A stretch of DNA of 64,000 nucleotides. Origin: Nitrososphaerota archaeon (GTDB lineage: Archaea > Thermoproteota > Nitrososphaeria > Nitrososphaerales > Nitrosopumilaceae). Numbering within the stretch: position 1 is the stretch's first letter; the number at the start of each line of letters is the position of its first letter. A model generated the notes under the pieces. The model saw only the letters and a list, made by a program, of their open reading frames with translations. It made no database searches and had not been told where the DNA came from. The position numbers and the translations under genes are program-made. The stretch is taken from contig JAJPGU010000010.1 in the NCBI GenBank assembly GCA_021325615.1, positions 62,001-126,000 of the forward strand, in the 5' to 3' direction. Of this stretch, positions 38,285 to 40,097 are shown in pieces.

Positions 38285-38515
38285 ATGCCGATAGCATTCG
38301 TCCTTCTAAATGCGGAGCTTGGAAAGGAGAACGAACTGCTAAACCAGGTGAGGGCCATCGAGCACGTCAAGTACGTGTATGTCCTTTACGGCGCATATGA
38401 TCTGGTGGTAAAGATTGAGGCGCCGGACAGCGAGACTCTCAAGAAGACCATTTCAAGCCAGATAAGGCAACTCAAAAATGTCCGTTCCACGCTTACAATG
38501 ACTGTAATAGAATGA
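38285..38515 (+). CDS. Stand-alone Lrp/AsnC RAM-domain protein
   Basis: 76 residues from ATG 38285 (MPIAFVLLNAELGKENE). The frame is open from 38261, but the TATA-like ATATTTAATATG at 38250-38262 overlaps that start and a GGTG lies just before ATG 38285. The core YVLYGAYDLVVKIEAPDSE is the RAM fold, without a DNA-binding domain. It overlaps tiaS by 4 nt. Second such protein in this window. Confidence 0.82.
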   Translation: MPIAFVLLNAELGKENELLNQVRAIEHVKYVYVLYGAYDLVVKIEAPDSETLKKTISSQIRQLKNVRSTLTMTVIE

Positions 38516-39837
38516 AAAAGAGCATACTGCACATAGGCTTTGACGACACCGATTCGCGGAAGGGCATGTGTACCACCTTCCTTGCATTCAAAATCGTGGA
38601 GCACCTGCGCAAGAAACGAGTGCGGTTCGTGGACTACCCTTACCTCATCAGGTTCAACCCTAACATCCCGTGGAAGACGAGGGGAAACGGCGCCGTGGCC
38701 CTGAAGGTTCAGACGGCAAGGCCAGAACTTGTCAAGCGAAGCGTAATCAAATTTGTAAGGAAATACTCCGCAATCGGAGAGGGCGCCAATCCCGGCCTTG
38801 CGTTTTACGAAAGCGACAGGATCCCGGAGGAATTTGTCAAGTTCGGCAGGGCTGCCCTCCACACCCTTGTGAACCGGAATGAGGCCAAGAGGTTTGCGGC
38901 ACGGAACCGGATTGAGACGTTCTACATGGGAAACGGGCAGGGCTTGGTGGGTGCGATAGGGGCGATAGGATACGCCTTCTATGATCATACGTTCGAGCTT
39001 ATAACCTACAGGAACAGGTCCAACCTTGGCAAGAAGAGGATTATCCTCAAGGACAGCGTGAGGAGGATGCAGGAGGAAACATTCCCAAGGACTTTTAACA
39101 GCTACGACGACTCGAGGGGACGCATACTTATAGCTCCCCACGGGCCTGACCCGGTGCTTTTCGGGATCCGTGGCGAGGACGTGGGCTCGGTGGTAAGGGG
39201 CGCATCTCTTGTCAGGTCTGGGGAAAGGCTTTCCGGATACATGGTATTCAGGTCAAACCAGGGAACAGGAAGCCACCTGCAGAACGAACTTGACATGGGA
39301 AACCTCAGACCGTACTCCTCGGGATACGTGGAAGGGGAGGTTTCCAAGGAACCGGTAACGACAGAGGGCGGGCACGTCATGTTTTCAATTTCCAGGTCGG
39401 GGCGCGAGGCAAGGTGCGCAGTTTACAAGCCGACTGGGCTAGGGGCGGTGGCATCGCGGCTCATGAGGGGCGACGTCATAAGGGTTGGCGGAGGAGTAAG
39501 GAGGGCCTCGAAAACTCACGGCAGGACGATAAACGTGGAATTCATCTCCGTTTCCAAGCTTGCCAAGAGCACGGCACTTGCAAACCCGGTATGTGTCCGG
39601 TGCAACAAGCACATGAAATCAAAAGGAAGGGGTCAGGGATTCAAGTGCATCCGCTGCGGCGCCATTTCAACGGCCAAGGTGGAGAGGCCCGTGCCGCGCG
39701 CGATAGGCAAGCGACTCTACCTCCCTGTCCCGTCTGCGCATAGGCACCTGACAAGGCCCCTGCAGCGGATCAACAGGGTCAATGCAGAGGTGACATTTGA
39801 CAGGTCTGCAAAATGGTTCCGTAATCTGAAGGGGTAG
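38512..39837 (+). CDS. tiaS: tRNA-Ile2 2-agmatinylcytidine synthetase TiaS
   Basis: 441 residues. N-terminal IGFDDTDSRKGMCTTF (about 8-23) is the TiaS kinase-like domain; GNGQGLVGAIGAIGYAF near 140-156, an OB-fold region (VRSGERLSGYMVFRSNQGTG) and a C-terminal zinc ribbon (CVRCNKH and FKCIRCGA) follow. It attaches agmatine to C34 of tRNA-Ile(CAU) so that it reads AUA. It is an archaeal hallmark. ATG overlaps the RAM gene stop by 4 nt; the tRNA-Met gene with an identical CAU anticodon lies just downstream. Confidence 0.95.
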   Translation: MKKSILHIGFDDTDSRKGMCTTFLAFKIVEHLRKKRVRFVDYPYLIRFNPNIPWKTRGNGAVALKVQTARPELVKRSVIKFVRKYSAIGEGANPGLAFYESDRIPEEFVKFGRAALHTLVNRNEAKRFAARNRIETFYMGNGQGLVGAIGAIGYAFYDHTFELITYRNRSNLGKKRIILKDSVRRMQEETFPRTFNSYDDSRGRILIAPHGPDPVLFGIRGEDVGSVVRGASLVRSGERLSGYMVFRSNQGTGSHLQNELDMGNLRPYSSGYVEGEVSKEPVTTEGGHVMFSISRSGREARCAVYKPTGLGAVASRLMRGDVIRVGGGVRRASKTHGRTINVEFISVSKLAKSTALANPVCVRCNKHMKSKGRGQGFKCIRCGAISTAKVERPVPRAIGKRLYLPVPSAHRHLTRPLQRINRVNAEVTFDRSAKWFRNLKG

Positions 39838-39889: not shown

Positions 39890-39902
39890 TAGCGGGGAGT
39901 AG

Positions 39903-39930
39903 ATTTTCCGGAACCTAAGCTCCTTTTGAA
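39903..39930 (-). other. T-loop region with a 21-nt intron
   Basis: The T-loop should be 7 nt (TTCAAAT) but is 28 nt here, implying a 21-nt intron. Exact cut sites are ambiguous because of repeated A residues at both borders. Confidence 0.7.
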
Positions 39931-39946
39931 CTACTGACTTGCGGGT

Positions 39947-39963
39947 ATCTCATCTGGATTGAT
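39947..39963 (-). other. Canonical tRNA intron (position 37/38), 17 nt
   Basis: ATCAATCCAGATGAGAT sits between A37 and A38. Its ATGAG pairs with the CTCAT of the anticodon loop, the central helix of the splicing motif. Confidence 0.82.
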
Positions 39964-39983
39964 TATGAGCCCGCCGGGATGAC

Positions 39984-39996
39984 CTAGCCCCGTAGT
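39984..39996 (-). other. D-loop tRNA intron, 13 nt
   Basis: ACTACGGGGCTAG; its removal restores a 10-nt D-loop AGCCAGGTCA with the G18-G19 pair. Intron GGCT can pair with exon AGCC. Cut position may shift by a base or two. Confidence 0.72.
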
Positions 39997-40040
39997 CTGG
40001 CTTCCCCACCCCGCTAAGTGAAAAGGTGTTTCGGGGTGAT

Positions 40041-40048
40041 ATATACGC
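40041..40048 (-). promoter_or_regulatory. TATA box of the initiator tRNA gene
   Basis: TATATATC on the minus strand, 26-33 bp before the first tRNA base, the normal archaeal spacing. Confidence 0.6.
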
Positions 40049-40097
40049 TTTATCTACTCTGAGAAATAATTAATAAGATTTCAAAGGTTTCAGACCC

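Follow-up and report, generated by a model that had tools for sequence, protein, structure and literature searches.

Transfer RNA genes with several introns have been published for members of the Thermoproteales, and passages in two papers describe two or three introns per tRNA in Pyrobaculum and Thermofilum (PMC3218864, PMC8450103). Like the gene described here, these tRNAs contain up to three short bulge-helix-bulge (BHB) introns at canonical and non-canonical sites, and their hosts have a heterotetrameric splicing endonuclease with a crenarchaea-specific loop. The loop has been linked to endonuclease specificity (PMC12397907, PMC4090602) and tied to a broad substrate range (PMC12397907), and alpha2-beta2 endonucleases have been noted in Thaumarchaeota (PMC4090602). 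tRNAscan-SE 2.0 features a Thaumarchaeota-specific BHB model, and 107 non-canonical introns were counted in the Thaumarchaeota genomes studied (PMC8450103). Those introns are of the same kind and from the same phylum as the ones here, but the passages of PMC8450103 that deal with them name neither this species nor an initiator gene with three introns. Putative introns in various tRNAs are also mentioned for Candidatus Nitrosotalea devanaterra (PMC4836417). Disrupted initiator tRNAs are known as well: Thermofilum pendens has a permuted initiator tRNA with junctions at 59/60 and 37/38, and Nanoarchaeum equitans has a split one (PMC3218864).

The locus analyzed here is an initiator tRNA-Met gene with three introns, found in a window (the whole stretch of DNA that was analyzed) of 64,000 nucleotides. 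Both the kind of intron and the enzyme that removes it are already known in archaea, and up to three BHB introns per tRNA have been published. The preliminary description was right that three introns in one tRNA have precedents, but it placed them in a Thermoproteales setting. The closest named relatives are Nitrosopumilaceae, and the host appears to be a Nitrosotalea, an ammonia-oxidizing soil thaumarchaeon and so no member of the Thermoproteales. The gene differs from the Thermoproteales examples in its thaumarchaeal host and in being an initiator tRNA; this likeness was judged apart from the intron sequences. It shares two of its three interruption sites with the T. pendens junctions, however, the T. 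pendens and N. equitans genes are in permuted order or in separate halves, whereas this is an ordinary linear gene with introns. No publication naming this gene was found among the open-access papers searched.

Features of the initiator tRNA-Met locus, in coordinates of the window
Feature	Coordinates	Strand	Description
promoter-like element (BRE/TATA)	40039..40054	-	GATAAAGCGTATATAT, ~30 nt upstream of the gene
exon 1	39997..40015	-	positions 1-18; acceptor strand AGCGGGG, D-stem GGGA, ends at G18
D-loop intron	39984..39996	-	13 nt, ACTACGGGGCTAG, position 18/19; presence/absence in orthologues
exon 2	39964..39983	-	positions 19-37; GTCATCCC, anticodon-stem GCGGG, loop CTCATA with CAU anticodon
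anticodon-loop intron	39947..39963	-	17 nt, ATCAATCCAGATGAGAT, canonical position 37/38
exon 3	39925..39946	-	positions 38-59; ACCCGC, variable loop AAGTC, T-stem AGTAG, TTCAAA
T-loop intron	39904..39924	-	21 nt, AGGAGCTTAGGTTCCGGAAAA, position 59/60
exon 4	39890..39903	-	positions 60-73; T-stem CTACT, acceptor CCCCGCT, discriminator A73
tiaS (tRNA-Ile2 agmatinylcytidine synthetase)	38512..39837	+	convergent conserved neighbour

The gene lies on the minus strand (40015-39890) and gives a tRNA of 75 nt once inserts of 13, 17, and 21 nt are removed; the sequence, coordinates, stems, and insert lengths given in the preliminary description were exact to the base. The spliced form features an A1-T72 pair, three G-C pairs (GGG:CCC) under a CTCATAA loop with the CAU anticodon, GG in the D-loop, and TTCAAAT in the T-loop. 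With the inserts removed, ARAGORN identifies it as tRNA-Met(cat) with all four arms. The unspliced gene gave no ARAGORN match in the window and no Rfam match at gathering or permissive thresholds, because it is interrupted by introns. The gene sequence lacks the 3' CCA (ACC is followed by TT).

The intron boundaries were determined from orthologues. The convergent arrangement with tiaS is kept across the Nitrosopumilaceae and marks the orthologous initiator locus. The initiator gene was extracted from more than 100 loci and divided into four exons with up to three inserts, and the loci vary in which of the inserts they have at precisely these three sites. In some relatives, many Nitrosopumilus among them, the gene is 74 nt long and has no introns, and others have the D-loop insert alone, the D-loop and anticodon inserts, or all three. 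One intron-free orthologue beside tiaS (L120) shares 72 of 74 bases with the predicted spliced product, a likeness beyond chance; thus, the inserts are precise and their boundaries do not depend on the drawing of stems alone. The contig with this orthologue, JAJFKT010000034.1, is titled Woeseiaceae bacterium although it features an archaeal tiaS and an archaeal initiator tRNA, and it is very likely a mis-binned thaumarchaeal contig. These zero-, one-, and two-intron orthologues, together with the helix covariation described below, bear out the earlier reading of a three-intron initiator tRNA.

The introns differ in their distribution. The gene was found in 33 Nitrosotalea genomes, all of which have the D-loop and anticodon introns; 29 of the 33 have these two inserts without the T-loop intron, which is present in the other 4 and is sporadic in other genera. 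All three introns occur in this window and in the congeners REEA14 (G018), JOPF033 (G019), and REEA70 (G030), and also in Nitrosotenuis, including Candidatus Nitrosotenuis chungbukensis MY2, in CSP1-1, and in members of other families. In MY2 and three relatives (L112, L115, and L116) the same gene is located beside tiaS and is interrupted at the same three sites. Of 300 sampled genomes of the order, 22 genomes from 11 genera matched a T-loop-intron pattern derived from the T-arm of this tRNA, and these matches were partly confirmed as the initiator gene. The rarity attributed to this arrangement was therefore overstated, since two of the introns are genus-wide where the gene was found and three-intron initiators occur in Nitrosotenuis and other families. 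Five initiator genes from other families of the order (L023, L073, L078, L084, and L085) have a fourth intron site, with an extra insert located after the variable loop and before the T-loop.

At all three sites, a cut after the second base of each 3-nt bulge yields the mature tRNA. The BHB motif at 37/38 is complete and consists of the outer helix GCGGG:CCCGC, the bulge ATA, the central helix CTCA:TGAG, the bulge TAA, and the inner helix TC:GA; the CTCA:TGAG pairing is the one between the middle intron and the anticodon region that had been proposed. The motif at 59/60 is also complete, with the T-stem as outer helix, the bulge AAT, the central helix TTC(A):(G)GAA, the bulge AAA, and the inner helix GGAG:TTCC. 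In Nitrosotalea this central helix features one A-G mismatch, at the inner pair, whereas the T-loop intron of Nitrosotenuis chungbukensis MY2 (TGGAG..CTCCTGAAAG) forms a perfect TTCA:TGAA central helix. The motif at 18/19 has a central helix AGCC:GGCT and bulges AGA and AGG; both its outer helix and its inner helix are short or weak.

Covariation is consistent with these pairings. The central helices at 37/38 and 59/60 cannot covary because they are opposite invariant exon bases, and the inner helices were scored at these sites. With shuffles that ignore kinship, the T inner helix has 41 of 44 cells paired among distinct sequences (shuffle mean 26.8; 0 of 10000 shuffles as high) and the anticodon inner helix has 29 of 38 paired (shuffle mean 18.1; 0 of 10000 as high). 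The D central helix has 124 of 136 cells paired against a mean of 120.6 in shuffles that likewise ignore kinship, with 38 of 10000 as high, and its third pair compensates between species, from C-G to T-A or T-G. ViennaRNA folding of the whole precursor gave a minimum-energy structure of -46.9 versus -37.1 for the cloverleaf with all BHB motifs. The difference is mainly around the D arm, where the minimum-energy fold lacks the outer and inner helices of the 18/19 motif. This result suggests a relaxed, perhaps order-dependent D motif, and splicing at the D-loop site probably calls for an enzyme that tolerates such motifs or for a set sequence of steps.

The genome encodes two PF01974 proteins, the alpha and beta splicing-endonuclease subunits, as well as RtcB. 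The catalytic alpha subunit aligns over nearly its whole length with EndA of PDB 3p1z (156 bits). It has KPK aligned to K44-P45-R46 of 3p1z_B, which belong to the crenarchaea-specific loop and its Lys-Pro/Val-Lys/Arg signature, and the catalytic Tyr/His/Lys are kept (FAVY..DHAPY..VRK). The second subunit lacks the catalytic His. By its sequence the endonuclease is predicted to be of the (alpha-beta)2 type with the crenarchaea-specific loop, in agreement with the earlier expectation that such a host would need a broad-specificity enzyme. Upstream of the gene, the promoter-like element is near-invariant across Nitrosotalea, and similar or recognizable elements are found in Nitrosotenuis and Nitrosopumilus. 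In all likelihood this initiator tRNA-Met gene of a Nitrosotalea species is functional and single-copy, and its transcript is spliced by the (alpha-beta)2 endonuclease and RtcB. The precursor would be transcribed from the conserved TATA promoter, the endonuclease would cut BHB or relaxed motifs at 18/19, 37/38, and 59/60, RtcB would join the exons, and CCA would be added after joining. These steps would take place in that order, and the gene is presumably expressed and essential.

There are three other readings of the interrupted gene. The locus could be a decaying pseudogene that collected insertions while a working initiator tRNA is located elsewhere. The genome is a draft of 32 contigs, and the set of tRNAs recovered from it is incomplete, as it lacks some expected isoacceptors. 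No second initiator tRNA was found among the 37 Rfam tRNA matches of this 96%-complete genome, however, and BLAST with the mature sequence found no other locus in it at a significant score, as the earlier claim of a single initiator gene had it. The exon bases and pairs are all intact and near-identical to those of the orthologues, the promoter is conserved, and the introns retain their paired motifs. Additionally, two single-contig relatives (G035 and G006) have one initiator gene each, with two of these introns. A pseudogene is thus highly improbable. The extra T-loop bases might instead result from an assembly or binning artefact, given the draft assembly and the absence of the T-loop insert from most congeners. 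The T-loop intron is, however, common to the three independently assembled congeners, where the homologous insert features sequence differences that preserve the pairing, and a similar insert is present in Nitrosotenuis chungbukensis MY2. The independent assemblies in effect refute an artefact, and its probability is close to nil.

It has also been considered that the inserts are not introns spliced by the endonuclease, but retained expansion segments of an unusual tRNA or self-splicing elements. Two observations fit this reading: the D motif departs from a textbook BHB, and at minimum energy the precursor folds into a structure other than the BHB cloverleaf. On the other hand, inserts of 13-21 nt are too short for self-splicing, as they are far below the size of a self-splicing ribozyme, and retained segments would disrupt the conserved contacts between the T- and D-loops. 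The precise absence of the inserts in orthologues, the paired motifs at every site, and the presence in the genome of RtcB and an endonuclease with the broad-specificity loop also argue against it. Retention or self-splicing is therefore very unlikely, and removal by the endonuclease is the preferred reading.

The genome features other tRNA genes that are unusual. Two CAU tRNA candidates for a second initiator were rejected. One (L050) is of the elongator type, with G1-C72 and no GGG:CCC stem. The other is Ile2-like, is found at two contig ends (L060 on C26 and L067 on C9 of this genome, G000), and has its own non-canonical intron of 17 nt inside the anticodon stem (~30/31). A gene labelled Gly(tcc) by ARAGORN (L064, G000:C6:38-141) reads as Gln(CTG) and has two introns, one in the D-loop and one at the anticodon. 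The former ends in GGGCTAG, as does the D-loop intron of the initiator gene, which suggests that D-loop introns of different tRNAs may share an origin. Another gene (L056, G000:C30:407-488) combines a long variable arm of the Ser/Leu type with a GAA (Phe) anticodon, and a normal Phe tRNA is also present. Many tRNA genes are located at or near contig ends (contigs C3, C6, C8, C9, C12, C17, C26, and C31) and two of them are duplicated there. Such a pattern would be expected if the assembly breaks at tRNA genes because of integrated elements or strain variation.

The distribution of the introns points to turnover. On a TiaS tree of 94 rows, a quick single-gene tree in which the window is a long branch with odd composition, the D-loop, anticodon, and T-loop introns need 4, 4, and 6 changes, respectively, with gain and loss counted alike. 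In the clearest example, one gene with the T-loop intron (L098) has a close sister without it (L101/L013), and the D-loop and anticodon introns are identical in both. There is about an even chance that gains, or precise losses, of the T-loop intron have recurred in Nitrosotalea on the time-scale of species. The possibility that the T-loop intron is a mobile copy also inserted in other tRNAs was rejected. Patterns searched in its own genome and in 37 congeneric genomes match the initiator gene alone, so there is no sign in those genomes of intron copying between tRNAs. One sequence resembling the T-loop intron (L177) has no tRNA around it.

The main value of the locus is in the presence/absence series, which includes genes of sister species that differ by the T-loop intron alone. 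With orthologues of zero to three introns at one syntenic locus, gain versus loss becomes testable. If the T-loop intron has been repeatedly gained or lost, the gene records the ongoing turnover of tRNA introns and offers a natural test of the role of introns in initiator tRNAs. Since ARAGORN and Rfam miss the gene, genomes of this kind can appear to lack an initiator tRNA. Nearly all protein synthesis begins with the single initiator tRNA, and the triple splicing of that tRNA would show how heavy an intron load archaeal translation can tolerate, given an endonuclease of broad specificity.
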